Below are positions 5,511 to 20,608 of a stretch of DNA of 30,714 nucleotides, piece by piece. Position 1 is the stretch's first letter; each line of letters starts with the position of its first letter. The DNA lies in IMG/VR virus record IMGVR_UViG_3300044646_000599, positions 1-30,714 of that record; one strand, written 5' to 3'. Position numbers and translations under genes: made by a program. Source of the DNA: a virus. The notes below the pieces were generated by a model. That model was not told the DNA's origin and made no database searches. It worked only from the letters and a program-made list of their open reading frames with translations.

Positions 5511-6056
5511 CTATATCCTAATAAAGTGCGTCCATGCTGACCGTAATCGTGAACGTCTATAGCATCCACCACCGTCTCGCTGAGAACCCGTAGCCCCAGA
5601 GGATGTATTCCCCTCAATGGAGTTAATGTATGATGCTCCAGGTGTTACCACTATACCCATGTGGTTCCCCTCGGTGCGAATCCATACGCACAGGTCTCCC
5701 CTTTTAGGCTTATCAACCACCTTGCCGTTTGCTTTCGCCCACGATAGCCATTGAGCGACAGCCGCACTTGCCCTGTCGGATAGACCAGATTGCTCAACAC
5801 CCGCAACATCACAGCAAAACTCAATCATGGCGGCACACCAAGGATAACCTTCTTTTAGTTTTACGGCTCCAAGGATAGCCTCTATCCATTCTCCATGATT
5901 ATTCTCTCCTTCCTCTCGAACCTTGATATCATCAGCTAGAACGGCAGCGGCAAGCAGTACTCGTTCATTTTTATCTAGGTCGTAGTAGTTAGGATATCTC
6001 ACAAGAAGAATATTCCTCACTCTTGTCATTGCATCGGAAGTAGTCATTTTGGACAA
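5511..6056 (-). CDS. CHAP-type endolysin / peptidoglycan amidase
   Basis: 181 residues. The motif GYPWCAAMIEFCCDVAG (70-86) is the active-site cysteine region of the CHAP/NlpC-P60 amidase family, with C74 the probable nucleophile. NHMGIVV (131-137) supplies the histidine H132, and IEGNTSS (147-153) the third catalytic region. The residues between match the family spacing (SAAVAQWLSWAKANG, KPKRGDLCVW). It should cleave peptide bonds or amide links in the host wall at lysis, or act as a virion hydrolase. The frame opens with a TTG at 6056; GAGGAA lies 11 bases before it. The first ATG (6047) would give MTTSDAMTRVRN but has no ribosome site. It is the first gene of the leftward block, facing the control region. 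Confidence 0.85.
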   Translation of the reverse strand: MSKMTTSDAMTRVRNILLVRYPNYYDLDKNERVLLAAAVLADDIKVREEGENNHGEWIEAILGAVKLKEGYPWCAAMIEFCCDVAGVEQSGLSDRASAAVAQWLSWAKANGKVVDKPKRGDLCVWIRTEGNHMGIVVTPGASYINSIEGNTSSGATGSQRDGGGCYRRSRLRSAWTHFIRI

Positions 6057-6096
6057 ATAGAAATACGTTCCTCAAAAGGAAAAAGTACCATCCCCT

Positions 6097-6102
6097 ATTA
6101 TA
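6097..6102 (-). promoter_or_regulatory. Candidate leftward (late) promoter -10 box
   Basis: On the minus strand this reads TATAAT, about 40 bases upstream of the endolysin start. The expected -35 zone contains only the CAGAAA repeats, with no TTGACA-like hexamer, so the promoter would need an activator or a phage-modified polymerase. The surrounding DNA is alternating TA, which makes chance matches likely. Confidence 0.3.
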
Positions 6103-6146
6103 TATATATTTCTGTTTCTGTTTCTGTTTATAGGAGGGTAGGTATA

Positions 6147-6179
6147 GGCTACCCTTAAGCTACCCTTAGGCTAGCCTTA
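6147..6179 (+). repeat. Iteron array A: three tandem 11-bp units
   Basis: Three abutting units GGCTACCCTTA (6147), AGCTACCCTTA (6158) and GGCTAGCCTTA (6169), consensus RGCTACCCTTA. The 11-base period is about one helical turn, so a protein binding each unit would line up on one face of the DNA. The array sits in AT-rich DNA. Confidence 0.85.
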
Positions 6180-6283
6180 TATATATAATTTGAACCTAAA
6201 ACTAATCAAATATGTAATACAAAGTATATATACTTATACTAAAAAAAATTAGAAAATGAAAGTAAAAAAACAGAAACAAAACA

Positions 6284-6300
6284 ACTAGCTACACGCTAGT
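6284..6300. repeat. Perfect inverted repeat, possible operator
   Basis: ACTAGC-TACAC-GCTAGT, two 6-base arms around a 5-base spacer, 16 bases before iteron array B. Could be an operator or part of the origin; no matching second copy was seen. Confidence 0.45.
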
Positions 6301-6315
6301 CGAAACATAGCCATA

Positions 6316-6359
6316 GGCTACCCTTAGGCTACCCTCAAGCTACCCTATAGCTACCCTTA
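6316..6359 (+). repeat. Iteron array B: four tandem 11-bp units
   Basis: Four abutting units GGCTACCCTTA (6316), GGCTACCCTCA (6327), AGCTACCCTAT (6338) and AGCTACCCTTA (6349), the same family and orientation as array A 137 bases away. A degenerate unit (ACATAGCCATA, 6305-6315) may precede it. Confidence 0.87.
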
Positions 6360-6543
6360 TCTACTACCTAAAATGTACTGTATGTCAAATGTGTAGTATA
6401 AGTGATTTGGATGGTTAAAAATTTTATGGTTGGGTAACGCGAACCGCTCCGCTCCTCATCCCCCCTCCCCCCCCATACCCACAATCCCACAAGCCCACAC
6501 TATATATACATACACTTACATACACTCTATATATACGATTCCT

Positions 6544-6648
6544 ACCTGGTGATTCACAATCTAGCTATAGACGATGGAAGGATAAAAGTTAGCATAGGCT
6601 AACATTTAGCAGCACATTCTATACATTCGAACCTGGTCTCACGATCTA
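6544..6648 (+). repeat. Imperfect direct repeat pair ACCTGGT..TCAC.ATCTA
   Basis: ACCTGGTGATTCACAATCTA begins at 6544 and ACCTGGTCTCACGATCTA at 6631, 87 bases apart. They share ACCTGGT, TCAC and ATCTA with a 2-base length difference. A dyad lies between them (6588-6603). Probably protein-binding sites; function unknown. Confidence 0.4.
6588..6603. repeat. Perfect inverted repeat GTTAGC-ATAG-GCTAAC
   Basis: Two 6-base arms with a 4-base spacer, in the stretch between the second iteron array and the early promoter. Possible operator; too short for a terminator and lacking a T run. Confidence 0.4.
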
Positions 6649-6718
6649 TATCAATAAGCGTACTTTTAACCTAAAACGCACAATTTTTAGACTTTTTTTA
6701 CTTTTTTCTATAACACTA

Positions 6719-6748
6719 TTGACAATCTGCCAAACATAAGCGTATAGT
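6719..6748 (+). promoter_or_regulatory. Early rightward promoter (sigma70-like)
   Basis: A consensus -35 TTGACA (6719-6724) is followed after 18 bases by TATAGT (6743-6748). The predicted start is near 6755, about 35 bases before the first early gene. The core CATAAGCGTATAGTA (6735-6749) recurs almost unchanged at 8914-8928. This is the best sigma70 match in the window and fits an immediate-early promoter. Confidence 0.65.
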
Positions 6749-6754
6749 ACTAAC

Positions 6755-6775
6755 ATAAGCTTAAAGCAAGCTTAT
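6755..6775 (+). promoter_or_regulatory. Dyad at predicted early transcript start
   Basis: ATAAGCTT-AAAGC-AAGCTTAT is a perfect 8-base inverted repeat starting about 7 bases after the -10 box and ending directly before the ribosome site AAGGA (6776). It would form a 5'-terminal stem-loop on the mRNA, or act as an operator. Confidence 0.55.
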
Positions 6776-6788
6776 AAGGAAACATAAC

Positions 6789-7019
6789 ATGACACTTGCA
6801 CAAATTCTCGCAATTGCTATCTCTATCATTGAAGCGGAAGGTTTTAACGTATGGTTAGCAGAAGCTCATGCCGACACAAACACTCTCACAATCGGTGGTG
6901 ACTATTACACGTCAACATCAGGACACAATCGGTACTTTTACGGAAAAATCAACTTCGAAAAATCATTCTTTACTATTTTCGAAGCCAACGGTGACACATT
7001 GCAAGTCGTTAAATTCTGA
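6789..7019 (+). CDS. Hypothetical early protein, 76 residues
   Basis: First gene of the rightward block, with leader AAGGAAACATAAC before the ATG. The N-terminus (MTLAQILAIAISIIEAEGFN) is a hydrophobic helix, probably packed in the fold rather than a signal peptide because a charged, soluble sequence follows (GGDYYTSTSGHNRYFYGKIN) and then alternating beta-like residues. I do not recognise the family. First-expressed small phage genes often encode host-takeover or anti-defence factors, but nothing specific supports that here. Confidence 0.75.
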   Translation: MTLAQILAIAISIIEAEGFNVWLAEAHADTNTLTIGGDYYTSTSGHNRYFYGKINFEKSFFTIFEANGDTLQVVKF

Positions 7020-7041
7020 CACTAACACAAGGAAACATAAC

Positions 7042-7248
7042 ATGGAAAAAAGAAAATCATTCTACAATTCGACAACACGAGAACGTGACGTTAAAACTTT
7101 GATTAACTTCATTCTTGACTTAGTGGACGGAAAAGAGGGTTACGATAAAATCACCCTCACTAAAGCAGACCTAAACCTACTTGCCGATCTAGCAAAGTCT
7201 ATTGATGAAAAATCAGCAGATGGAATTTGGATTACCAAAAATAACTAA
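7042..7248 (+). CDS. Hypothetical early protein, 68 residues
   Basis: The start is the ATG at 7042, which has the same leader (AAGGAAACATAAC) as the previous gene; the longer upstream frame is a shadow of that gene. The product (MEKRKSFYNSTTRERDVKTL...) is charged and mostly helical, with an amphipathic stretch (LINFILDLVDG) and ITLTKADLNLLADLAKSID resembling a small helical protein-interaction domain. Not recognised. Spacing and leader suggest co-transcription with its neighbours. Confidence 0.75.
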   Translation: MEKRKSFYNSTTRERDVKTLINFILDLVDGKEGYDKITLTKADLNLLADLAKSIDEKSADGIWITKNN

Positions 7249-7264
7249 CTAAGGAAACACTAAC

Positions 7265-7618
7265 ATGGAAGCAACACAAACACAATCGACACTTGACAGC
7301 ATCCTAGAACTTGGCAGCAAGTACCTGGGCATTCCTATGGAAGCCCCAAACGATGATAACGAAGGCAGTGACGCCGTATGTAACGCGTTTGACTTCGTAA
7401 ATGCCCTTTATTGGCATTGCGTCAATAATTATGACGGCATGAATTCCATTGAACATTGGATTAAATGCAATTTGGAGTATAAACCTGGTGTATCGGAAAA
7501 TGGAGTCTATCCCGATAATTCGGTAGCTAACATATTTGGTGACTGCACAATGCCCTACTTCATTCATGAGAATTTTCATAAGTTGGCAAACATCAAATTT
7601 AACAGCAGAGGTAACTAA
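7265..7618 (+). CDS. Hypothetical early protein, 117 residues
   Basis: ATG preceded by AAGGAAACACTAAC. The sequence is acidic with several Cys, Trp and His (DAVCNAFDFVNALYWHCVNN, GDCTMPYFIHENFHKL), suggesting a compact, perhaps metal-binding fold, but no standard zinc-finger spacing. Not recognised. It ends one base before the next start codon. Confidence 0.75.
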   Translation: MEATQTQSTLDSILELGSKYLGIPMEAPNDDNEGSDAVCNAFDFVNALYWHCVNNYDGMNSIEHWIKCNLEYKPGVSENGVYPDNSVANIFGDCTMPYFIHENFHKLANIKFNSRGN

Positions 7619-7619
7619 C

Positions 7620-7832
7620 ATGACACAACCACGAACACGAAACGAATACTTACTAAGCATCTTGAAAAATGACCTGAAAAGGGTTCAAGAATCCATAGAT
7701 ATACTTGGCGACCACATAATGAGCCTGCAAAATCAGGGGTTCAAAGTATCAAAAGATAGTACTGATGCTTTTGGATACCTGAACCGTGAAGAGGGTAGGT
7801 TGGAGGGTTTAATCTACGAGCTGACACATTAA
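7620..7832 (+). CDS. Hypothetical helical protein, 70 residues
   Basis: The ATG at 7620 is chosen over an upstream ATG at 7536 because AGAGGTAACTAAC supplies a ribosome site and the upstream part is a shadow of the preceding gene. The product is largely helical (NEYLLSILKNDLKRVQESIDILG, then FGYLNREEGRLEGLIYELTH) and may be a coiled-coil dimer. Not recognised. An 18-base repeat plus hairpin begins at its stop codon. Confidence 0.72.
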   Translation: MTQPRTRNEYLLSILKNDLKRVQESIDILGDHIMSLQNQGFKVSKDSTDAFGYLNREEGRLEGLIYELTH

Positions 7833-7840
7833 CCTAGCCT

Positions 7841-7863
7841 TAGGGTAGCCACAAGCTACCCTA
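7841..7863 (+). repeat. Intercistronic hairpin 1, iteron-related
   Basis: TAGGGTAGC-CACAA-GCTACCCTA: a perfect 9-base stem with a 5-base loop, 8 bases after the stop of the upstream gene. The arms are an inverted pair of the 11-bp iteron core. There is no T run, so it is not a standard terminator. It may stabilise or process mRNA or bind the iteron protein. Confidence 0.65.
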
Positions 7864-7920
7864 CCTTAAACTAGCCTACGGCAGTCTCAAGCCTGCACAA
7901 ATAGTGAGAGAGGACATAAC

Positions 7921-8367
7921 ATGAACAACATGAACAACACTTACATTGATGGGGTTTTCTCGACCCTGAAAGAATCCGCTAAAAGTCAGCAAGTGAACGA
8001 GCCTACGTTTATACTGCAGGCTTTCGCCGCAACATACGGAACCTCTTGCCTGCAACTCCTTCCAGAATTCCAGGTGACTAAGTATCAAGGTATTGGTCTT
8101 CAAGCTTGGGAGATTCTCTATTCAAATAGAGAAAACAACACCCAGGTCGTATGGCTTCTAGAAAAGAACGGTGAGTACGTCACTACCACTTGCTCGTTAA
8201 AAATGTTACTCAATCTAAAGGAGATTGAAACTTCTTTCTCGAATTTACTTTGGAGCGAAGTTGCAGAGGCTTTGCCCCCATTAAACGACAACTTGTGGGT
8301 GGAAAGTAATCAAGAAGCTGTAAAGCTTCTTATAGGCTTCACGAGCCTATACTATCAATCAGTATAA
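7921..8367 (+). CDS. Hypothetical early protein, 148 residues
   Basis: ATG preceded by GAGAGAGGACATAAC. The start repeats MNNMNN, so a second ATG three codons in is possible. The protein is mixed and soluble, with aromatic-rich segments (LQAWEILYSNREN, TQVVWLLEKNGEYVTTTCSL) and a helical C-terminus ending in LIGFTSLYYQSV. I do not recognise a family. It is bracketed by two iteron-like intercistronic hairpins, each associated with a stop codon. Confidence 0.75.
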   Translation: MNNMNNTYIDGVFSTLKESAKSQQVNEPTFILQAFAATYGTSCLQLLPEFQVTKYQGIGLQAWEILYSNRENNTQVVWLLEKNGEYVTTTCSLKMLLNLKEIETSFSNLLWSEVAEALPPLNDNLWVESNQEAVKLLIGFTSLYYQSV

Positions 8368-8376
8368 CCTAGCCTT

Positions 8377-8397
8377 AGGGTAGGTGACAGCTACCCT
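8377..8397 (+). repeat. Intercistronic hairpin 2, iteron-related
   Basis: AGGGTAG-GTGACAG-CTACCCT: a 7-base stem and 7-base loop. It begins 9 bases after the stop codon and is preceded by the same 18 bases (AACCTAGCCTTAGGGTAG) found at 7831-7848. No T run follows. Confidence 0.6.
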
Positions 8398-8437
8398 GAC
8401 ATAAACAGAAAAAAGAAACATAAAAGGATATAGACAG

Positions 8438-8695
8438 ATGAAACAATTCGACATATACGTCAGCAATTCGCCATACCTTAAAATCATGGCATTAACTGAG
8501 GCAGGTATTAAAGCCTACAACGAGATATCCTATCAATGCCTAGAAGCAGGCATGACGATTCATGACATAACCATACATGATCGTGAACGCTTAGTAGGTT
8601 CACTACGAAAGGCAGGTTACAGCGTGACGTCAATCATGCCTAAGCATGAACTCAACATGAGCGATGATGAACTTTTAGAGGAACTAGGAATATGA
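8438..8695 (+). CDS. Hypothetical early protein, 85 residues
   Basis: ATG preceded by AAAAGGATATAGACAG. An acidic, helical protein with possible alpha/beta character (FDIYVSNSPYLKIMALTEAG) and a C-terminal acidic helix (SDDELLEELGI). Not recognised. Its stop overlaps the next ATG (ATGA), indicating coupled translation with a small membrane protein. Confidence 0.72.
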   Translation: MKQFDIYVSNSPYLKIMALTEAGIKAYNEISYQCLEAGMTIHDITIHDRERLVGSLRKAGYSVTSIMPKHELNMSDDELLEELGI

Positions 8696-8898
8696 ACGTA
8701 GTAGACAGAGTTAAACAGCACCAGGAACTTCAACGGAAGTACCCACAACTGACGCCCGATGAGGTTGAACTGATGATCATCAACGGAACACTTCAACCCG
8801 AATCAAAACCCAAAAGCCAGGGTATGACCTGGGCTGATGGATTCTTGATGCTATTTTTGGTAGCTCTCGCCATTTTTGTAGGAATTTTACTAAAATAG
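8692..8898 (+). CDS. Small tail-anchored membrane protein
   Basis: 68 residues. The first two thirds are charged and helical (VKQHQELQRKYPQLTPDEVE, where TPDEVELMI could be a short recognition helix); the C-terminus is one transmembrane helix (FLMLFLVALAIFVGILLK), so it is probably inserted in the inner membrane with its N-terminus in the cytoplasm. It overlaps the preceding gene by ATGA. Early phage membrane proteins of this type can act in superinfection exclusion or in redirecting host processes; the function here is unknown. Confidence 0.72.
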   Translation: MNVVDRVKQHQELQRKYPQLTPDEVELMIINGTLQPESKPKSQGMTWADGFLMLFLVALAIFVGILLK

Positions 8899-8913
8899 TA
8901 AATTCTGACAATT

Positions 8914-8928
8914 CATAAGCGTATAATA
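8914..8928 (+). promoter_or_regulatory. Second early promoter core
   Basis: CATAAGCGTATAATA contains a perfect -10 TATAAT (8922-8927) and matches the first early promoter core at 14 of 15 bases. Here the preceding TGACAAT lies only 11 bases from the -10, instead of 18, and no other -35 is visible. It is either a promoter that does not need a -35, or a regulator-binding copy. Confidence 0.5.
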
Positions 8929-8933
8929 GAACA

Positions 8934-8947
8934 TACGCAAAAGCGTA
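8934..8947 (+). promoter_or_regulatory. Dyad at predicted transcript start of second early promoter
   Basis: TACGC-AAAA-GCGTA begins 7 bases after the -10 box, the same position as the larger dyad at 6755 after the first promoter. Possible operator or 5'-terminal RNA hairpin. Confidence 0.5.
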
Positions 8948-8965
8948 AAACATAGGACACAAAAC

Positions 8966-9205
8966 ATGGAAACAACACAATCACGCGGGATTCCCGTTAT
9001 CGAATTCTACACCTGGTCTAAGACCAACGGTCACACCTCATCTCGTTTATACATCACACTCAATGGTGGGTTTGTATTGGGTGGTCAATTCTTGAACGAT
9101 GGAGATTGTGACACATTGAACATCGTGGCAAGAGTCAAAGTCACCAGGTCTAAGATAAAGGAACTTGCAGCACAAGCAACACCAATCGCTAAACGAGGTT
9201 ACTAA
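8966..9205 (+). CDS. Hypothetical early protein, 79 residues
   Basis: Leader ATAGGACACAAAAC before the ATG. It looks like a small beta-rich protein with a basic helical C-terminus (TRSKIKELAAQATPIAKRGY). The core (SSRLYITLNGGFVLGGQFLN) shows alternating hydrophobic residues with Gly turns. Not recognised. It has its own promoter candidate just upstream and is followed by a structured leader for the next gene. Confidence 0.72.
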   Translation: METTQSRGIPVIEFYTWSKTNGHTSSRLYITLNGGFVLGGQFLNDGDCDTLNIVARVKVTRSKIKELAAQATPIAKRGY

Positions 9206-9212
9206 GGTCGAA

Positions 9213-9265
9213 ACAGGGGGCAACCCCTGTCAGGTGGTGTTGCCACCTCTGATGATGACCATCAG
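9213..9265 (+). ncRNA. Structured leader of three tandem hairpins
   Basis: Three stem-loops lie back to back. Stem 1: ACAGGGG (9213-9219), loop GCAA, CCCCTGT (9224-9230), a 7-base stem with a GNRA-type loop. Stem 2: AGGTGG (9232-9237), loop TGTTG, CCACCT (9243-9248). Stem 3: CTGATG (9249-9254), loop ATGAC, CATCAG (9260-9265). The ribosome site AAAAAGGAAAC follows within a few bases. All stems are perfect and no T run follows, so it is not a terminator. It could be a cis-regulatory RNA, a translation control element or an mRNA-protecting structure; it matches no riboswitch class I know. Confidence 0.6.
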
Positions 9266-9277
9266 CAAAAAGGAAAC

Positions 9278-9463
9278 ATGAAAACATACATTCTACAATC
9301 AAGACACTCACACGCTCAAGGCGTCACCCGATACCTGATGGCAGGTGGCAGGCATCAACTCACACGCTCCCCAAAATGGGCATTGACCTTTACCTCTTTT
9401 GAAGATGCTTGCAACAAGGCTCAAAAGGTTGGCGGGATGAAAGTTGTAGAGGTGGCAGCATGA
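9278..9463 (+). CDS. Hypothetical protein, 61 residues
   Basis: ATG preceded by AAAAAGGAAAC. A small basic protein (MKTYILQSRHSHAQGVTRYL) with a compact beta/alpha look: strand, turn (AGGRHQLTRSPKWALTF), helix (SFEDACNKAQKVG), strand. The pattern resembles small phage proteins with a ferredoxin-like beta-alpha-beta core but no specific family is recognised. Its mRNA leader holds three hairpins. The stop overlaps the next ATG. Confidence 0.7.
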   Translation: MKTYILQSRHSHAQGVTRYLMAGGRHQLTRSPKWALTFTSFEDACNKAQKVGGMKVVEVAA

Positions 9464-9699
9464 AGCAACTATTTAACATGGACTATGTCAACGCTCTGCA
9501 AGAAGGGAATTACTTCGGGTGCGAGATGAATGGTCAAAGCGAGGAGCAACAAGAAGCCATTCAGCAAGCTTGGATAGATGCGATGGCTCGAAGAGGGTGG
9601 ATTCTAAATGAAGACGTCATTGAGTGCCGTTATGACCAAGACGAATTTGATTCTGCTTGCATGGAATCACTTAACGAAGCGTTGGAAGGTGTAGCATGA
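9460..9699 (+). CDS. Hypothetical acidic protein, 79 residues
   Basis: The start is the ATG at 9460 overlapping the upstream stop (ATGA); an in-frame upstream ATG at 9409 lies inside the previous gene and is less likely. The protein is acidic (YDQDEFDSACMESLNEALEG) with a helix rich in Gln and Glu (SEEQQEAIQQAWIDAMARRG). Small acidic phage proteins can mimic DNA or inhibit host nucleases, but that is speculation. Not recognised. Confidence 0.7.
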   Translation: MKQLFNMDYVNALQEGNYFGCEMNGQSEEQQEAIQQAWIDAMARRGWILNEDVIECRYDQDEFDSACMESLNEALEGVA

Positions 9700-9866
9700 A
9701 CATCAAGGCAAAGAATCTCAATTTGGGAGACAAAGTAAAGATGGATGATGATTCTCTTGAGGAGATTGTTTACATTAAGCACTTGACCTCCAAGGTGATG
9801 AAATTGGGTTTCAAAAAATTTAGCGTAGTGATAGGTGCTTATGATCTGGTTGAGGTGGCAGAATGA
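9696..9866 (+). CDS. Hypothetical protein, 56 residues
   Basis: Short frame from ATG 9696 to TGA 9864-9866, overlapping both neighbours by ATGA. The product begins MNIKAKNLNLGDKVKMDDDS and continues as a small, probably all-beta domain (IVYIKHL, FSVVIGAYDLVEVAE). The opening NLNLGDKVKM is similar in style to small SH3-like or KOW-type beta barrels found in phages. The perfect chain of overlaps on both sides supports that it is translated. Confidence 0.65.
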   Translation: MNIKAKNLNLGDKVKMDDDSLEEIVYIKHLTSKVMKLGFKKFSVVIGAYDLVEVAE

Positions 9867-10126
9867 AACGAGCAAATAGAACAACGTCCGAAGTACTTTC
9901 CGACATGGTATCCATCATTGCTAGGAACCTAGCGGATGGACTGCTAACAGAGGAAGGGTTATTTAGCAATGACTTCCGTGACCTCATGGCAGACTCACTC
10001 ATAGTCACCCAAAACATTGACGGGATGAGTACCAAGGAGACGGCGGAATGTCTCGCTATTCATACCATTTACACGAGAGCAATGACGATTCTTGAGGAGC
10101 GAAACAATGCCGAAACCCAAGGGTGA
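9863..10126 (+). CDS. Hypothetical helical protein, 87 residues
   Basis: ATGA overlap with the upstream gene. The sequence is almost wholly helical (TTSEVLSDMVSIIARNLADG, then TKETAECLAIHTIYTRAMTIL), with no cysteine motif or transmembrane segment. Not recognised. The next gene starts inside its last codons, in another frame. Confidence 0.7.
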   Translation: MKRANRTTSEVLSDMVSIIARNLADGLLTEEGLFSNDFRDLMADSLIVTQNIDGMSTKETAECLAIHTIYTRAMTILEERNNAETQG

Positions 10127-10268
10127 ACCACGCAAAACAATCGGTATAAACCTGCCCGTCAGGTACTGGTTGTGGCTCAAGGTGCAACCCGAACCTATGA
10201 GAGCATTGATAATGAGATTGATTGAGCAAGAGATGTACAGAATTAAGGAGATAAAAGACCGTGAGTAA
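10107..10268 (+). CDS. Small ribbon-helix-helix-like DNA-binding protein
   Basis: 53 residues from ATG 10107 (ribosome site GAGGAGCGAAACA) to TAA 10266-10268. The order is a basic tail (MPKPKGEPRKT), a short strand (IGINLP), then two helices (VRYWLWLKVQPEP, MRALIMRLIEQEMYRIKEI). This matches the small MetJ/Arc ribbon-helix-helix fold used by phage and plasmid repressors, with IGINLP as the DNA-contacting strand. It lies directly upstream of the replication initiator candidate and overlaps its GTG start by 8 bases, so it may control that gene. Fold assigned by pattern only. Confidence 0.6.
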   Translation: MPKPKGEPRKTIGINLPVRYWLWLKVQPEPMRALIMRLIEQEMYRIKEIKDRE

Positions 10269-10914
10269 GACAACCCCCACGGGGTGGTTCAAGTTCTATC
10301 ATCGTGATTGGGTGAGTAGTTCGACCATACGCAAGATGAGTATGGCTGCTCAAGGTATCTACCTAAATCTGTTACTCCTTCAATGGGAAGATGGACAAGT
10401 ACCCGACACACTAGAAGAGGCGGGAGAGATATTAAGACTGACAGAAGGCGAAATAGAGGCATTTACGCCCTACTTCTCAAGCCTATTCCCTGATGGTCAG
10501 AACCCTAGACTCGCACTAGAACGCTCGAAATCCGTTGAGTACATTGAGAAGCAGAAAAGTCATGGCAAGCCTAAGGGTAGCTTAAGGGTAGCCACAACTA
10601 AGCCTGAAGGTAGGCAGAAGGTAGCTAAGTTTATCCCGCCAACCGTTGAAGAGGTAGCGGGTCATATGCTAACCCGAAGATGGCGAAACCATGAACGCAA
10701 GGCAGAACAGTTCGTAGCGTGGTACGAGGGCAAGGGATGGAAAATAGGTAAGGCGTTTATGAAGGATTGGAAGTCAGCGGTCATAACTTGGGAGGGCAAA
10801 ATGAATGATGATGATTTTCTACCTAAGCCTAAGACGAGCCACAAACCTGGTGAACTTATCGAAGGTATTCATTATCAGGTCTTACCTAGTGGTGAAAGGG
10901 TGGATATGCTATGA
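10261..10914 (+). CDS. Replication initiator candidate, YdaU/DUF1376-type N-terminus
   Basis: 217 residues starting with GTG at 10261 behind a strong ribosome site (TTAAGGAGATAAAAGACC). Residues about 7-66 (GWFKFYHRDWVSSSTIRKMS, AAQGIYLNLLLLQWEDG) match the N-terminal pattern of DUF1376/YdaU proteins, winged-helix-like replication proteins usually encoded beside a helicase or loader. Residues about 98-125 form a basic linker (KPKGSLRVATTKPEGRQK) encoded by an 11-bp iteron array; the C-terminal half contains a Trp-rich helical domain (RKAEQFVAWYEGKGWKIG). The stop overlaps the start of the DnaB-type helicase gene. By analogy with lambda O, it may bind the iterons inside its own gene and recruit the helicase; that is inference. 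Confidence 0.75.
   Translation: MSKTTPTGWFKFYHRDWVSSSTIRKMSMAAQGIYLNLLLLQWEDGQVPDTLEEAGEILRLTEGEIEAFTPYFSSLFPDGQNPRLALERSKSVEYIEKQKSHGKPKGSLRVATTKPEGRQKVAKFIPPTVEEVAGHMLTRRWRNHERKAEQFVAWYEGKGWKIGKAFMKDWKSAVITWEGKMNDDDFLPKPKTSHKPGELIEGIHYQVLPSGERVDML
10572..10626 (-). repeat. Iteron array C inside the initiator gene
   Basis: Five consecutive 11-base units on the plus strand: TAAGGGTAGCT, TAAGGGTAGCC, ACAACTAAGCC, TGAAGGTAGGC, AGAAGGTAGCT. The first two are the exact reverse complement of the RGCTACCCTTA iteron; the others are degenerate but in register. The array codes for the initiator linker. Confidence 0.7.
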
Positions 10915-12218
10915 ATCCGCACAACCTAGACGCCGAAAGGTGTGTACTTGGGTCGTGTATCTTGTCTACGAAGGCAAGTAGTAAGGCTATTGCACTACTA
11001 AAGGCAGACGACTTCTTTCTACCTGCTCATGGTCTGATATTTGAGAGTATCAAGGCTACGTTATCACAAGGTAGGGAAGTAGACTTTGTGACCGTCCGCA
11101 ATGGGCTAGGCTCAAAGCTAGTGGATGCTGGTGGGATTGATTACCTGATGCAGGTTGCGGAATATGTACCTTCGGCAGCGAACATTGGAACCTATTGCGA
11201 GATAGTCAAGGACAAGGCAACTCGTAGGTCAATCATTCAATCAGCTAAGGGCATTGTATCCCAAGCGGTAGACGATGACGTGTCAACGAGTGAGCTGGTT
11301 CTCAACTATTCCAAAACGGTTAGTGACCTTCATAGAGGGGTAAGCAAGTCACCCATGATAAAGCTAGGTCAAGCCATGAGTCAATGGGATGATGAACTTC
11401 TGAGCGAGGAACCTAGCAAGCTATACACAACGGGGTTCCCAAGTCTTGACAAGGTTTGCGGTGGGTTTGGAGCAGGTGACCAAGTTATCGTGGGGGCATA
11501 CTCAGGAATGGGTAAGACGGCGTTTGCGTTTGAGTCCGTAATGCTATCCAGCAAGAAGACTAACAAGCCTTGGATTATTTTCTCTCTGGAGATGAACGCC
11601 AACCAGCTTATATCACGCTTCGTACAATCCAGAACGGGGATTGGCATAAACCGTCAGCGTCAGCGACAATTCACGGATGCTGAATACACTAGCATGAGTA
11701 ACTACTTAGAGGAGTTCTATCAACTTCCGATATACATTGTAGACTCTGGAAGGGTAGACCCTTCGACCATCAAGGCAAGGTTGCTAGAGGTAGCAGAGCA
11801 ACACGGAGAGGTAGCAGGGTTCGTCATTGACTACCTAGGCATGGCGGTTAAGACTACTAACGCCCAACAACGGGCAACAGCGGTAGAACAGTACTGCTTT
11901 GAAACCAAGTCTCTCGCTAAGGAGTTTGAATGTACGTCCGTGATTCTCTCGCAACTTGCTAGGGATTCCGTCAGGTCTGAGGGTAGGACTCCAGAGGCTC
12001 CAAGTCTATACCATCTTAAGGAATCTGGTGGCATTGAAGCTAGTGCTGATATTGTACTAGGCTTACACCGTCCCGAATATTGGCTTGCTAAGAAAGAGGA
12101 ACGCAAGGAAACCAAGGCTCCAGCCTACGTTCATATCTTGAAGCAGAGGTATGGGGCGACGGATGTTGTCGAACTAGAGTTCACCCCGTGGCAAGCAAGG
12201 TGGCACGAGGCACGATGA
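10911..12218 (+). CDS. dnaB: Replicative DNA helicase (DnaB family)
   Basis: 435 residues. The N-terminal helical domain opens with NLDAERCVLGSCI, typical of DnaB. The RecA-like core has Walker A GAYSGMGKT at 195-203, the FSLEM motif at 224-228, Walker B FVIDYLG at 304-310, the LSQLAR sensor at 346-351 and ESGGIEASADIVL at 371-383, all in the expected order. It should form a hexamer that unwinds DNA at the fork and would recruit host primase and polymerase, as I see no phage primase or DNA polymerase in the window. Its ATG overlaps the stop of the initiator candidate, a common initiator-helicase pairing. Confidence 0.93.
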   Translation: MNPHNLDAERCVLGSCILSTKASSKAIALLKADDFFLPAHGLIFESIKATLSQGREVDFVTVRNGLGSKLVDAGGIDYLMQVAEYVPSAANIGTYCEIVKDKATRRSIIQSAKGIVSQAVDDDVSTSELVLNYSKTVSDLHRGVSKSPMIKLGQAMSQWDDELLSEEPSKLYTTGFPSLDKVCGGFGAGDQVIVGAYSGMGKTAFAFESVMLSSKKTNKPWIIFSLEMNANQLISRFVQSRTGIGINRQRQRQFTDAEYTSMSNYLEEFYQLPIYIVDSGRVDPSTIKARLLEVAEQHGEVAGFVIDYLGMAVKTTNAQQRATAVEQYCFETKSLAKEFECTSVILSQLARDSVRSEGRTPEAPSLYHLKESGGIEASADIVLGLHRPEYWLAKKEERKETKAPAYVHILKQRYGATDVVELEFTPWQARWHEAR

Positions 12219-13362: not shown

Positions 13363-14019
13363 ATGGACAAAGACTTTGTTGTTAGGGAACTTCAGAAGCC
13401 ACTTGATAGTAGCGTCATTAAGCAACGTGACCAAGCAGGTCGAAGCCTAAGTTACATTGAGTCGTGGCACGCCATTGCAGAAGCCAACCGTATCTTTGGT
13501 CATCTATCTTGGGATAGACAAACCTATAGCATGAACATGGTTCAATGTGAGCAGAAGGGTGACAAGGGTTTATGGTACGTTAGCTATACAGCACGTTCAG
13601 TCATCACCTTTGATGGGGTCACCAGAGAAGGCACAGGATTTGGTCAAGGTATTGACAAGGACTTAGGCAAGGCTCATGAGTCAGCTATCAAGGAAGCAGA
13701 ATCAGACGCTATGAAGAGGGCGTTGATGACCTTTGGCAACCCGTTTGGGCTAGCCTTGTACGACAAGGAGCAACGTAACGTAGCTAAGGAGATGTCAATG
13801 GAAGATGCTCGAAAGCTGATGATGAAGCAGGTTGCAACTACTTGGAAGAATATGGGTGGGACGGCAGCACAATTCAAGGAGCTGGGTTCTACCCTTGCGG
13901 TAGCCAACATTGATGTGTATGAATTTGTACACTCAAGTATTCTTGACCAGGAACTAGAAACCATTGAAGCTATTCAAGAGTTTGCAAATGAGGTCACTAC
14001 TAAGGGTAAGACTCGTTGA
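13363..14019 (+). CDS. Rad52/Rad22-type single-strand annealing protein
   Basis: 218 residues. Diagnostic segments in order: GRSLSYIESWHAIAEANRIFG (27-46) and GHLSWDRQT (46-54), a beta hairpin (GLWYVSYTARSVITFDG, 69-85), REGTGFGQGI (88-97), then the family hallmark KAHESAIKEAESDAMKRALM (103-122) followed by TFGNPFGLALYDK. This is the N-terminal annealing domain of Rad52. It binds single-stranded DNA and pairs complementary strands; phage members drive replication-linked recombination. The last 70 residues are helical and not conserved. It lies between a Gam/Gp157-like gene and ssb, a typical phage recombination module. Confidence 0.9.
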   Translation: MDKDFVVRELQKPLDSSVIKQRDQAGRSLSYIESWHAIAEANRIFGHLSWDRQTYSMNMVQCEQKGDKGLWYVSYTARSVITFDGVTREGTGFGQGIDKDLGKAHESAIKEAESDAMKRALMTFGNPFGLALYDKEQRNVAKEMSMEDARKLMMKQVATTWKNMGGTAAQFKELGSTLAVANIDVYEFVHSSILDQELETIEAIQEFANEVTTKGKTR

Positions 14020-14257
14020 CGTTTATGAAGGCGAGGCACTATTCATCGTTGACTCTGATTCCGTTTGGGGTCAGAGTTATGAAGTTTATATTAACAAACA
14101 TGGACAAACAACTTGTGAGTGCATGGACTCTATGTACCGCAAGAAAACTCCCCACTTCGTTGACCTTCTCAGAGGCAACAATGACCATGCTTGCAAGCAT
14201 ATGCAAGCGATAAGAAAACTATGTCACTCAATAGAATCACACTCGTCGGAAGGATAA
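13988..14257 (+). CDS. SWIM-type zinc-finger protein
   Basis: 89 residues from ATG 13988; an in-frame ATG at 13964 would add 8 residues, and neither has a strong ribosome site. After a beta-rich part (VDVYEGEALFIVDSDSVWGQ) comes CEC at residues 43-45 and, 24 residues later, CKH at 69-71: the CxC...CxH signature of a SWIM zinc finger. SWIM domains bind DNA or proteins and in archaea and eukaryotes accompany recombination factors. The location, overlapping the Rad52-type gene and upstream of ssb, suggests a recombination accessory role. A stand-alone SWIM protein this small is less common. Confidence 0.7.
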   Translation: MRSLLRVRLVDVYEGEALFIVDSDSVWGQSYEVYINKHGQTTCECMDSMYRKKTPHFVDLLRGNNDHACKHMQAIRKLCHSIESHSSEG

Positions 14258-14610
14258 CTAGGAATCCTGAACTTAAAAACATTGGAGATAAAAAACTAGT
14301 TGAGTTCTCCATTGCAGTCAACAAACGTGTTAAGCCAAAGGAAGGTAATGACGCTGACTTCTTCTATGTCAAGGCATGGGGACAAACTGCTGGTTACGTT
14401 AGTGAGTACCTTGATAAGGGACGCTTAGTAGCCATTGATGGTAGGTTAGATACCAATACCTACGAGAAGGACGGTAAACAAGTCACCTCGTACTACATTA
14501 CCGCTGACAATGTTAACTCACTTGATAGACCAAAGGACAATGCAGGTATAAGCAAGTCCAACAAGTCGAAGTCAAGTGGTGATGAGTACTCACCTTGGGA
14601 CGATGAATAA
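14221..14610 (+). CDS. ssb: Single-stranded DNA-binding protein
   Basis: 129 residues from ATG 14221, where the family begins (MSLNRITLVGRITRNPELK). OB-fold hallmarks follow: LVEFSIAVNKR, DFFYVKAWGQTAGYVSEYLDKG, VAIDGRLDTNTYEKDGK and TSYYITADNVNSLD. A polar linker leads to the acidic tip SPWDDE, the usual partner-docking tail. It coats single-stranded DNA at forks and during annealing. The start lies inside the end of the SWIM gene in another frame. Its stop overlaps the start of the RusA-type gene. Confidence 0.93.
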   Translation: MSLNRITLVGRITRNPELKNIGDKKLVEFSIAVNKRVKPKEGNDADFFYVKAWGQTAGYVSEYLDKGRLVAIDGRLDTNTYEKDGKQVTSYYITADNVNSLDRPKDNAGISKSNKSKSSGDEYSPWDDE

Positions 14611-14962
14611 GGTCACGGTTCCCATCCCACCTAGTCTCAACTCTGCATATTTCAATATAGGCAGGAGACGAGCAAAGGCAAAGTGCTACACCGATTGGGA
14701 GAAGGAAGCACACCCAGTCATCAAGGCAAGCATGAGCAAGGCTACGCAACCAGTCTTCATTGAATACCTATTCACACTTGGAACTTCTTTTCGAGGAGAT
14801 GTTTCAAATAGAATAAAATTAGTTGAAGATGCATTAGTCAAATGTGCTATACTAGAAGATGACAACCACAAGTTTGTAAAGGGTTTTTCAGTTAATCTGG
14901 ACTACGCAAAACAAAAACATTCGACACTTACATTAACGATACATGAATTAGGGACGGACTGA
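14603..14962 (+). CDS. RusA-type Holliday junction resolvase
   Basis: 119 residues from ATG 14603; GTG at 14576 or ATG at 14582 would add up to 9 residues. The family pattern is clear: PIPPSLNSAYFNIGRRR at the N-terminus, a central strand (FIEYLFTLG) and then GDVSNRIKLVEDALVKCAIL with EDDNHKFVKGF. D66, D76 and D86/D87 occupy the catalytic acid positions of RusA. It cuts four-way junctions produced by recombination and helps resolve replication intermediates before packaging. ssb and the methyltransferase overlap it on either side. Confidence 0.88.
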   Translation: MNKVTVPIPPSLNSAYFNIGRRRAKAKCYTDWEKEAHPVIKASMSKATQPVFIEYLFTLGTSFRGDVSNRIKLVEDALVKCAILEDDNHKFVKGFSVNLDYAKQKHSTLTLTIHELGTD

Positions 14963-15945
14963 TGACACACTTATCACTATTTACAGGAATTGGCGGGATT
15001 GATTTGGCAGCCGAATGGGCTGGATTTGAAACCGTTGCAATGGTAGAGCGTGATAAGTTTTGTCAACAAGTGCTAGCAAAGAGATTCCCTAACGTGCCTA
15101 TCTATGATGATGTCACAACCTTTGACGGATACAAGTATGAAAAAGAAATTGACCTACTCTCAGCAGGGTTCCCTTGCCAACCCCACTCCCTTGCAGGAAA
15201 ACGTAAGGCATCTAGTGATGAGCGTGATTTATGGGGTGAAGTCGTCAGAATTTTGGGGGAAACGAAACCAAGATTCTTCTTGGGAGAGAACGTGCCAGGA
15301 CTCCTTACCTCTGAGTCTGGAAGATTCTTCGGAAGAATACTCAATGACTTGGAATCCTTGGGGTATTGCGTCGGGTGGGCTACTTATGGAGCCAAGGATA
15401 TCGGAGCAGTGCACCGTAGAAATCGAGTCTTTATTGTTGCTTACTCCAAGAACTTGTTCTGCAATGGGGGCAGCTATCAATCCAGCGTCTCACCTTTATC
15501 CGAATTTAGAGACGGTAATTGCTCGAGAGTTATTGGCAACTCCAACTGCAAGTCAAGATTACAAGCCAATACGTCAGCTATCACCGAGCGAGGCGAATGG
15601 GACACACGGCAGGACTCTTGTTGCGGACATTGGCAGGGAGATGCTACCGACTCCAACTGCATCAGAGCAGAAATACAGATTGAAGGGCAACTCCCAACAG
15701 AGCAAATGTCTGGAAGCAAAAGCGAGAAGGGGAGAACTTATCAACTCATCCTTGGAGGAGATTGGAGACAATGGGGAATCAGCCCTACGGTTAGGCTTGA
15801 ATCCAGAGTTTGTGGAAGCAATGATGGGGTTCCCAACAGGGTGGACAGACTTAAGGCTTTAGGAAATGCTGTAGTTCCTCAACAGGTGTATCCTATACTT
15901 GTTGAGATTGCAAGACATCTTCAAACATTCGACAACCAGGCGTAA
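14962..15945 (+). CDS. dcm: DNA (cytosine-5) methyltransferase
   Basis: 327 residues with the C5-methyltransferase motifs in order: I LFTGIGGIDLA (6-16), IV GFPCQPHS (69-76, catalytic C72), VI ENVPG (109-113), VIII RRNRVFIVA (152-160) and X RLKALGNAVVPQQ near the C-terminus. It transfers a methyl group from S-adenosylmethionine to cytosine within a short recognition sequence, probably to protect phage DNA from host restriction. No restriction enzyme is next to it, so it is an orphan. The target-recognition region (about 165-290) is poorly conserved and the same DNA carries a long alternative frame with methyltransferase-like sequence (see 15104-15862). Start at ATG 14962, overlapping the RusA-type stop. 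Confidence 0.92.
   Translation: MTHLSLFTGIGGIDLAAEWAGFETVAMVERDKFCQQVLAKRFPNVPIYDDVTTFDGYKYEKEIDLLSAGFPCQPHSLAGKRKASSDERDLWGEVVRILGETKPRFFLGENVPGLLTSESGRFFGRILNDLESLGYCVGWATYGAKDIGAVHRRNRVFIVAYSKNLFCNGGSYQSSVSPLSEFRDGNCSRVIGNSNCKSRLQANTSAITERGEWDTRQDSCCGHWQGDATDSNCIRAEIQIEGQLPTEQMSGSKSEKGRTYQLILGGDWRQWGISPTVRLESRVCGSNDGVPNRVDRLKALGNAVVPQQVYPILVEIARHLQTFDNQA
15104..15862 (+). other. Alternative open frame within the methyltransferase gene
   Basis: A 252-codon frame lies entirely inside the methyltransferase gene in a different phase. Its last 100 residues read like another type of phage C5-methyltransferase C-terminus: two TPTAS boxes (LATPTASQDYKPIRQLSPSE and LPTPTASEQKYRLKGNSQQ), then RLGLNPEFVEAMMGFPTGWT. 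The same bases in the main frame give CGSNDGVPNRVDRLKALGNA, also a recognised ending. Its ATG cluster at 15104 has no ribosome site. It may be a relic of a frameshifted ancestor, a programmed-frameshift product, or a chance consequence of constrained DNA; I do not claim it is translated. Confidence 0.4.
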
Positions 15946-18389: not shown

Positions 18390-18740
18390 ATGGATAGAAA
18401 ACTCTCGCCGCCAGACGCAATGATTTCCGCTCTTAAGAAAGGGATGGAATTACACAAGATGGGACTCTCAGGAAATGGATTGCAACCTGATACTGTTACA
18501 TGGGCAAAACGGTTTATCGCTGGAGATGATGCAACTCCAGAAAAGATAGCCAAGGGTAACAAGTGGTGGGGTCGAAATGAGAGGTTCTTGAAAGAGCCTG
18601 ACAAGTCTCCTGCAATGGTTGCTGCTTTGCTTTGGGGTGGTGCTCCTGGACGAGACTGGTTCCGAGCTATGTTCAAAGAAATGAACCACGAAAAAAAAGA
18701 AGAAAAGATGAGCTACAAAGATATGGAGGATAAGTCTTAG
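18390..18740 (+). CDS. Hypothetical protein with phage LLWGG-type motif
   Basis: 116 residues from ATG 18390, where the conserved part begins (MDRKLSPPDAMISALKKGME); no ribosome site is visible, so the start is a choice by family pattern. Segments GNGLQPDTVTWAKRFIAG, then SPAMVAALLWGGAPGRDWF, match a module (G-L-P-T-V ... SP-x-x-VA-x-LLWGG-x-G-R-x-W) that I recall from phage structural, protease-linked and ADP-ribosyltransferase-linked proteins, usually as a fused tail domain. Here it stands alone with a charged C-terminus (EKKEEKMSYKDMEDKS). The gene lies between two intrinsic terminators, so it probably has separate transcription or depends on read-through. Confidence 0.7.
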   Translation: MDRKLSPPDAMISALKKGMELHKMGLSGNGLQPDTVTWAKRFIAGDDATPEKIAKGNKWWGRNERFLKEPDKSPAMVAALLWGGAPGRDWFRAMFKEMNHEKKEEKMSYKDMEDKS

Positions 18741-18786
18741 GTAGAATACAAGTGAGCCTAATTGGTTCAGTTGTAGAAGATGGGAT

Positions 18787-18819
18787 AAGCCTCGTGTCAC
18801 AGCGGGGCTTTTTTATTTA
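18787..18819 (+). terminator. Rho-independent terminator 2
   Basis: AAGCCTCG (18787-18794) pairs with CGGGGCTT (18803-18810, one G-T pair) and is followed by TTTTATTTA after the two terminal Ts. It ends the rightward block before the converging late genes. Confidence 0.83.
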
Positions 18820-18831
18820 TGACAAAGTAAG

Positions 18832-18853
18832 AGACCCCACCGAAATGAGGTCT
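18832..18853 (-). terminator. Weak terminator candidate for the late operon
   Basis: Between the converging blocks, AGACC (18832-18836) pairs with GGTCT (18849-18853). Read on the minus strand it is followed by CTTACTTTG, only partly T-rich. It is the only dyad seen downstream of the last late gene. Confidence 0.3.
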
Positions 18854-18879
18854 GGGGAATGGAGTTTAGAGGTATCACG

Positions 18880-19140
18880 TCAAACGTCTTTGGCTTTCGC
18901 AAAAGTTTCGTCTAACTTGATTGCAGTATACACCGAGTTTGCGTCAATGTCTACCATGTCAGCAAGAGCCACCGAGTAATTGGTAAGAGGTGCTTTGTCT
19001 GCCGTTCTCGCCGCCTTATCCTTGTAGCAAGCAAGTTGGGCAATACCTTTGCCTGCTCGAAAGTCGTAGTGAACTTCAACGAGCCGATGGTACATGGCAT
19101 CTACGCCAAACGCTGTTTCAATCTTAATTTCAAGAGCCAT
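18880..19140 (-). CDS. Hypothetical protein, 86 residues
   Basis: ATG 19140 is chosen because AAAGGAAGAAGAAG lies just before it; an earlier in-frame ATG at 19164 is a shadow of the upstream gene. The product begins MALEIKIETAFGVDAMYHRL and looks beta-rich with a helical end (IKLDETFAKAKDV). Last gene of the leftward block and downstream of the fibre-like gene, so perhaps a structural accessory. Not recognised. Confidence 0.68.
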   Translation of the reverse strand: MALEIKIETAFGVDAMYHRLVEVHYDFRAGKGIAQLACYKDKAARTADKAPLTNYSVALADMVDIDANSVYTAIKLDETFAKAKDV

Positions 19141-19306
19141 CTTCTTCTTCCTTTGGTTGTGCAACCAGTTGGTTGCGAATGTCTAGTATCTGTTGAAGTG
19201 CATTGAACACCTCATTTGCTTGCCCTACCGTTCCATTGAATGGGGCGGAGTCGATAACTTGGGTGAGGAGTTCTGCTTGTTCTTGGGTAAGTTCTAGTGT
19301 TACCAT
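19130..19306 (-). CDS. Small helical protein, 58 residues
   Basis: ATG 19306 to TGA 19132-19130, with AAGGAG 12 bases before the ATG. The product MVTLELTQEQAELLTQVIDS is helical with a second helix (ANEVFNALQQILDIRNQLVA) and an acidic tail (PKEEEDGS). The length and two-helix order fit a small dimeric phage protein seen in aquatic phages; function unknown. It overlaps the next gene by 11 bases. Confidence 0.65.
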   Translation of the reverse strand: MVTLELTQEQAELLTQVIDSAPFNGTVGQANEVFNALQQILDIRNQLVAQPKEEEDGS

Positions 19307-19325
19307 GTTTCTAGTTTACTCCTTC

Positions 19326-20234
19326 TTACCACGTTGCAATTGCTACTCGTTTCCATGTATTTGTTGCGGTGCAAACGTAAATGTAACTTGCATCCCAACA
19401 GATAGTTCCAGTTGTTCCAGTTGCTGTTGCTGATGCTGGAGTTTGCGATGTTGAAATAGCTATCTGGTTTGCAGAGAACGTAGTAGTTCCACCACCACCA
19501 TTAAAGGTAATGTTGCCATTTGAGCGTGTAACTGCCATCACCAAACCAAGGTCAGCACCAGCGTCTGAAAATCTGCGAACGTCGAAATCACTTCCAGCAT
19601 TGCTTCCACTTTCTGCCGTTGTGTTTGCACCAATCGTAAACCGCGTTGAAGACGATGTTCTAAAGAAGACCAGCCGTCCATTCCCAGCAGTGTTGTTCAC
19701 TTGAAAACCTGTTGCCACACAGCTTCCATTAAAAGTTGCAAACGTTGGGTCAACAATTGAAAAACTTAAAGTTGAGGTTGCCGACCCGCTTGCAGTTGTG
19801 TAAAAATCAAGTCGTGTGCCTCGAACACTTTCTGTAAATGCTTGAGTAGCCGCCGCTCTAATTTCAGCCGCTCCAACCGTGCCAAAAGTAGATGCACCAT
19901 AACCTTGCCATTGGATTGAACCAAGGATATTTCCAGATTGTACGGCTGTTGGGGAAGCATAGGTTCCTTGCCGTCTCCTGAAAAGGATAGTATTTTGTCC
20001 CGCCGAAGAACTAAAAATATTGAATGAATCAACTGCTTCAGTCCCTTGAAACATTGTAATAGTATTTGCAAGACCTGCAGGGATAGCAGAAATTGTTCCC
20101 GTAGCTTGAAATACTGCACCAGCAGTAATGGTGTCTGGTGCCTTGAAAACTTGCTGTGCGTTCCAAGTATTAGAGGTAGCAAACTTAGAAAGTGCCGCCT
20201 CTCCTGCTGTTGAGTTAACAATCTGTTTAATCAT
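19326..20234 (-). CDS. Tail fibre / receptor-binding-like protein
   Basis: 302 residues from ATG 20234 (GGAG 10 bases before); the longer upstream frame is a shadow. It is rich in Ser, Thr, Gly and Ala with repeated short strands (GSIQWQGYGAS, DFYTTASGSATSTLSFSI, GNITFNGGGGTTTFSANQ), as in trimeric beta-helical fibres. It ends with GTICWDASYIYVCTATNTWK, a C-terminal cap (ICWD..YIYVCTA.NTWKR) I recall from many aquatic phage fibre proteins. It should form part of the adsorption apparatus. Location at the distal end of the virion block supports this. Confidence 0.78.
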   Translation of the reverse strand: MIKQIVNSTAGEAALSKFATSNTWNAQQVFKAPDTITAGAVFQATGTISAIPAGLANTITMFQGTEAVDSFNIFSSSAGQNTILFRRRQGTYASPTAVQSGNILGSIQWQGYGASTFGTVGAAEIRAAATQAFTESVRGTRLDFYTTASGSATSTLSFSIVDPTFATFNGSCVATGFQVNNTAGNGRLVFFRTSSSTRFTIGANTTAESGSNAGSDFDVRRFSDAGADLGLVMAVTRSNGNITFNGGGGTTTFSANQIAISTSQTPASATATGTTGTICWDASYIYVCTATNTWKRVAIATW

Positions 20235-20236
20235 TC

Positions 20237-20545
20237 TTAGCACACTCCGTAAGCGTTGACGGTAATTGAGCCAGCATTTGTACAAACATACATGGCACAA
20301 CCGTAAGGTGGGTCACCCATAACTGAAATTGAAAGTGCAGTTCCAGGATAAATACGGATGCCTCTCAAGTTTTCAGCAGATGTTGGAGCAGTTGCTGCTA
20401 GCGGAATAAGGTGAACAAATACAGAATTGGTTGTATCTGGATTGCAAATAACTACACCTGTCGAACCATTTGGAATATCCAAGATTGCGGGAGTAGTAGT
20501 CACAGATTGACTAGCAAAGGTTCCATTAAGTTGAAAGGTTGTCAT
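20237..20545 (-). CDS. Small structural protein, 102 residues
   Basis: Two bases upstream of the fibre-like gene. It is beta-rich and Thr/Ser-rich (QSVTTTPAILDIPNGSTGVV, GIRIYPGTALSISVMGDPPY), with cysteines at both ends of the final hairpin (CAMYVCTNAGSITVNAYGVC). The pattern resembles small phage decoration or fibre-adaptor domains with an immunoglobulin or jelly-roll-like sandwich. Specific function unknown; the adjacency suggests a fibre partner. Confidence 0.65.
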   Translation of the reverse strand: MTTFQLNGTFASQSVTTTPAILDIPNGSTGVVICNPDTTNSVFVHLIPLAATAPTSAENLRGIRIYPGTALSISVMGDPPYGCAMYVCTNAGSITVNAYGVC

Positions 20546-20608
20546 AATTGTTCTCTTGTTTTTATAGACGTTTGAAAGTATTATTTGGATGTATTGCGTG
20601 ACGTAGGC

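Follow-up and report, generated by a model that had tools for sequence, protein, structure and literature searches.

The 11-bp repeats in the stretch of viral DNA analysed here (the window, a viral record of 30,714 bp that lacks terminal repeats) are best interpreted as iterons for the phage replication initiator, the predicted product of the gene at 10261-10914. Taken as a whole, the sequence makes it likely that the initiator binds these iterons through its N-terminal domain and that they form part of a relocated module, with the intergenic block 6057-6430 probably being the main origin and the copy within the gene having degenerated. This block probably arose when the origin within the initiator gene was duplicated or relocated; the array that remains there appears to be an older, degenerate remainder that may still bind the protein. 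A single main origin in the intergenic region is more probable than two of equal rank, given that the in-gene array has degenerated and no longer has the (AAACAG)n tract of the relatives. A change from the in-gene to the intergenic position is suggested, since all relatives have the in-gene form.

The iteron family and the divergent intergenic region

Sites matching RGCTACCCTTA with no more than one mismatch occur 10 times in the window, against 0.89 expected and a maximum of 4 in shuffled sequences, and all of them are confined to 6147-10593. When two mismatches are allowed, 11 sites are scattered over the approximately 26 kb beyond this region, which corresponds to the chance level. With the same threshold, the window contains six pairs of sites at a distance of 11 bp, while none appeared in 300 dinucleotide shuffles, and among the spacings from 6 to 24 bp just 11 and 22 bp occur. 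An earlier sequence-only reading had proposed that these 11-mers are shared by the intergenic region and the initiator gene in exact 11-base register, and had named equal density in shuffled sequence as a finding that would speak against it. The excess over chance, the register and the presence of the same 11-mers at both places were all borne out, and its array coordinates (6147/6158/6169 and 6316/6327/6338/6349, with 10572 and 10583 on the minus strand) are correct.

Two relatives served for most comparisons. G001 (IMGVR_UViG_3300044678_001328) is close to the window, with a nucleotide identity of about 93% across large parts of the genome; a segment of about 2.3 kb (18664-20990 of G001) has no counterpart in the window. 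G001 is probably circular, because it ends in a 127-bp direct repeat. G002 (IMGVR_UViG_3300008261_000079) has a 114-bp repeat and reaches about 76% identity across the structural genes. In both circular relatives, the GC skew has its minima within the early region, but these follow gene orientation and are not decisive.

The proposed origin block (6057-6430) occupies the divergent intergenic region between the endolysin and late genes on the minus strand and the early genes on the plus strand. Iteron array 1 (6147-6179, plus strand) consists of three 11-mers, the third of which, at 6169, reads GGCTAGCCTTA. Array 2 (6316-6359, plus strand) has four units, at 6316, 6327, 6338 and 6349, two of them exact, one with one mismatch and one with two. 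An (AAACAG)3.5 array (6109-6129, minus strand, TTTCTG on the plus strand) comes after the iterons, the same order as in the in-gene origins of the relatives. The least stable 120-bp segment of the genome, a candidate unwinding element, lies between the arrays at 6171-6290, and the least stable segments of 60, 100 and 120 bp in both the window and G001 genomes all fall between the two arrays. A second AAACAGAAACA motif (6268-6281, plus strand) and a short hairpin, ACTAGC-TACAC-GCTAGT (6284-6300, fold z -3.3), which is terminator-like on the minus strand, are also located there. The AAACAGAAACA sequence occurs in the window at 6113, 6119 and 6268 only, and in G001 at the equivalent places and beside an iteron site at 28425; in both genomes, it is found exclusively beside iterons. 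In G002, it is restricted to the in-gene array. A candidate unwinding element is present at 6100-6290; beside the in-gene iterons, the relatives have an AT- or A-rich array of this kind, and the window and G001 have none.

The block is identical in the window and G001 at 367 of 374 positions (98%), versus 323 of 421 (77%) in the neighbouring non-coding stretch 6360-6780. Identity extends to all 44 positions of array 2, all 21 of the hexamers, 32 of 33 in array 1 and 134 of 136 between the arrays. The in-gene array is identical at 54 of 63 positions (86%), compared with about 90% in the rest of the initiator gene, but this lower value is no clean comparison, because the array is also under coding constraint. 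The high identity of the block could reflect recent exchange instead of selection, since about one in ten equally long segments of the compared arm is as well conserved and the local identity peak spans approximately 5800-6450. Close to the block, a C-tract CCCCCCTCCCCCCCC at 6459-6475 (7430-7446 in G002, L114) is common to the divergent intergenic regions of the window, G001 and G002 despite their differing surroundings.

The initiator gene and linker repeats in its relatives

The initiator candidate (10261-10914, plus strand) comprises a DUF1376-like N-terminal domain, scoring below the Pfam cutoff, a linker, and a C-terminal domain (10627-10800) of the helicase-loader type, which belongs to phrog_15768 and has weak similarity to DnaD-like loaders. 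This C-terminal domain is common to initiators of Vibrio, Porphyromonas, Flavonifractor and Psychrobacter phages, where the genes carrying it mostly adjoin a helicase or loader gene. In the window, the next gene encodes a DnaB-type replicative helicase (10911-12218, plus strand), and the module continues with genes for a Gam-like protein, a Rad52-type single-strand annealing protein (SSAP; 13363-14019, plus strand) and SSB (14191-14610, plus strand). A separate helicase loader was not recognised, and the C-terminal domain of the initiator may serve as one. The predicted structure of the N-terminal domain is helical, with good confidence. PDB fold searches gave no significant match, the nearest solved structures being mostly helix-turn-helix proteins (E about 0.3-2), and PDB profile searches with both domains gave nothing useful. 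The protein had no Pfam match to Rep_3 or RepA_N initiator domains. In the literature searched, DUF1376 and phages come up together in four papers, with a single mention in each; judged by title or abstract, none of the four deals with its function.

The in-gene array (10564-10626, minus strand) is the linker-coding part of the initiator gene, as the earlier reading had it. It contains two exact units at 10572-10593, with 26 of 26 nucleotides identical to 6147-6172, followed by degenerate sequence; G001 has mismatches in both units that are exact in the window. Three degenerate units had been proposed downstream, and two of them, at 10605 and 10616, are recognisable. The one at 10594-10604 is in itself no iteron and is the counterpart of the spacer unit in the 33-bp (3 × 11) in-gene repeat of the relatives. 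An AAACAG-like array is absent from the initiator gene in both the window and G001.

Besides G001, the N-terminal domain is common to 11 contigs of about six lineages. All of them carry 11-bp iterons within the gene and, after these, a short-period array rich in C and A, which is of the AAACAG type in nine contigs, (CAAACA)3.5 in L253 and (CAA)n in L248. Relatives with the N-domain tail most similar to that of the window have the same iteron core, AGGGTAGC or AGGCTAGC. In L244, L245 and L247, the N-terminal domain is about 50% identical and the C-terminal domain is different; their in-gene AGGGTAGC iterons lie in a 33-bp unit CAAGCCTAAGGCTAGGTCAAGGGTAGCTAACAG (one base varies) that contains the iteron core of the window, and this core falls at the same place of the protein (KPKARSRVANS versus KPKGSLRVATT in the window). 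Iterons of the GTTCAAC type are found in L246 and in G002, which has the C-terminal domain of the window. The type of iteron varies with the final helix of the N-terminal domain (residues about 76-105, YIExQ versus DREQQ type), not with the C-terminal domain or the first 75 residues. This association could be plain physical linkage instead of specificity, because the last helix is encoded beside the array.

Linker repeats are a more general feature. Tandem repeats were present in the linkers of the 12 phages looked at in the annotated collection. In 67 distinct metagenomic relatives with the C-terminal domain, they cover 22.2% of the linker versus 0.82% of the sequence outside it, most often with periods of 11 and 12 bp. 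Repeats of 9-45 bp were found in 56 of these relatives and arrays of 4-7 bp in 32, and where both classes occur, the long repeats start first in 26 cases out of 30. Scanning for exact (AAACAG)4 returned 115 viral stretches, 76 of them inside open reading frames of 120-420 aa in the Thr-Glu repeat frame, which among annotated families most often matched replication initiation and primosomal proteins; like the linker-repeat counts, these numbers are not independent, many sequences being close relatives of each other. The Thr-Glu-encoding (AAACAG)n recurs in replication initiator genes of many viral contigs (L116-L230), often straight after iteron-like repeats.

G001 is the only other genome in which intergenic arrays were found. 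Copies of the linker repeats outside the gene at the level seen in the window did not occur in the examined stretches of seven N-domain relatives, G002 and 56 C-domain relatives, and endolysin-gene relatives with an initiator of this kind had no such arrays upstream of the endolysin gene. The earlier reading had considered that relatives keeping the initiator and lacking the arrays would count against it. This applies in part to G002, where the intergenic arrays are absent, but iterons of its own, of different sequence, are found in the gene. A nucleotide search of the phage collection gave no match. A collection-wide search with the bare 11-bp dimer returned 81 genome and six viral stretches; among the 13 sequences read, only the close relative has a comparable array, and the other matches were rejected as unrelated repeats.

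The proposed origin, known systems and alternative explanations

It is proposed that the N-terminal domain of the initiator would bind the iterons, so that on arrays 1 and 2 the initiator molecules would be aligned along the same side of the double helix. Opening would then occur in the weak duplex between the arrays, the AAACAG strand would be kept single-stranded, and the C-terminal domain would recruit the phage DnaB helicase. A further, more tentative suggestion, somewhat short of an even chance, is that this is an origin in transit: the full module has been rebuilt in the divergent promoter region, the in-gene copy is being lost with the linker set free, and the AAACAG array is itself a functional origin element.

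The pairing of in-gene and non-coding origins is not new. The Bacillus phage SPP1 has oriL within gene 38 and oriR outside coding sequence; each contains repeats and an AT-rich element, and gp38 binds to both (PMC6316719). The window resembles SPP1 in carrying repeats both within the initiator gene and outside coding sequence, in the combination of repeats with an AT-rich element, and in the genes of a phage DnaB-type helicase, SSAP and SSB (PMC6316719). However, no sequence relation is apparent, no separate counterpart of the loader gp39 was recognised in the window, the two sites are 4.2 kb apart versus about 13 kb in SPP1, and the in-gene array of the window is degenerate and without an unwinding element. 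In lambdoid phages, the central part of the O gene contains iterons and, next to them, an AT-rich tract (PMC7466680). The comparison with λ O made in the earlier reading is supported by the central position of iterons within the initiator gene and by the O-like C-terminal domains of relatives having the N-terminal domain of the window. The protein of the window itself has no λ O-like match, showing instead DUF1376 (weakly) and phrog_15768 or DnaD-like loader similarity; moreover, the λ iterons are 19-bp imperfect inverted repeats, and an intergenic copy is not described in PMC7466680. In the RepA_N plasmid pSK41, the origin lies inside rep and encodes the linker, the N-terminal domain binds the boxes, and DnaD-like domains are present (PMC5703833). 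The window is similar in the iteron array inside the initiator gene, which encodes the linker, in the proposed binding by the N-terminal domain and in the DnaD-like domain, but RepA_N is a plasmid family to which it has no match.

The SPP1 precedent, the two exact iterons retained in the gene, and the SSAP and SSB genes would all suit a pair of active origins, one intragenic and the other intergenic, with the second array acting as a late origin or as a fork barrier triggering the switch to concatemers. This seems unlikely, as the in-gene AAACAG-like array present in all eleven relatives outside the window and G001 pair is missing, and G001 has mismatches in both otherwise exact in-gene units. 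Handcuffing that couples replication to an early/late switch, also raised in the earlier reading, is a speculative possibility drawn from the geometry of the arrays. Somewhat less probable still is that the arrays are operators through which a regulator, perhaps the initiator, controls divergent early and late promoters, the intergenic site being unrelated to replication. The arrays do lie between divergent transcription units, and single sites occur in other early-gene spacers, but the motif is that of the in-gene iterons of the relatives, and AAACAG and a weak duplex are attached to the arrays. In addition, no Pfam regulator was found in eight of the early genes, and the best promoter match (6719-6748) is distant from the arrays. 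That the arrays are neutral, microsatellite-like sequence or a small mobile repeat dispersed in the phage might be suggested by copies in several spacers and by slippage-prone hexamers, but the restriction of the sites to the replication and early region, the fixed 11-bp register with units differing by substitutions, the strong conservation and the link to the initiator type make this explanation highly improbable.

A relocated main origin would be of wider interest, as in-gene phage origins are constrained by simultaneous protein coding. A lineage with repeats in both places, together with relatives having the in-gene form only, allows a test of which origin parts are needed and how origins move. 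By the simple rule of linker iterons with a short A-rich array behind them, origins and initiators can be predicted in many uncultured phages, and the comparison suggests a role for DUF1376-type proteins.

Early-gene spacer sites and other observations

Two smaller iteron sites lie immediately past stop codons, at 7832-7864 (units at 7832 on the plus, 7840 on the minus and 7854 on the plus strand) and at 8367-8399 (8367 plus, 8375 minus, 8389 plus), the latter being kept in G001. The inverted pairs noticed earlier are present at both, but a third unit had been missed at each (7832 and 8367), exactly 22 bp from the plus-strand unit, so that these sites also hold the 11-bp phase. They belong to related elements of 33-42 nt (7830-7871 and 8365-8406) combining iteron units with a hairpin in two early-gene spacers, one of the two being kept in G001. 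The idea that the inverted pairs are intrinsic terminators was rejected, because hairpins do form there but no T-run comes after them. Most small early genes of 6789-8350 have little or no counterpart in G001, which marks an exchange hot spot adjoining the proposed origin.

Neither tRNA genes nor Rfam families were found. The C-5 cytosine methylase gene (14962-15945) is overlapped on the same strand by a long open frame (15104-15862). In L337, L338 and L339, which have a related endolysin and, by sequence reading, a D5/P4-like primase-helicase, 11-bp arrays AACTATACACC and AAACTATCCGT lie beside the primase-helicase gene; apparently, they represent another origin type with the same repeat length.
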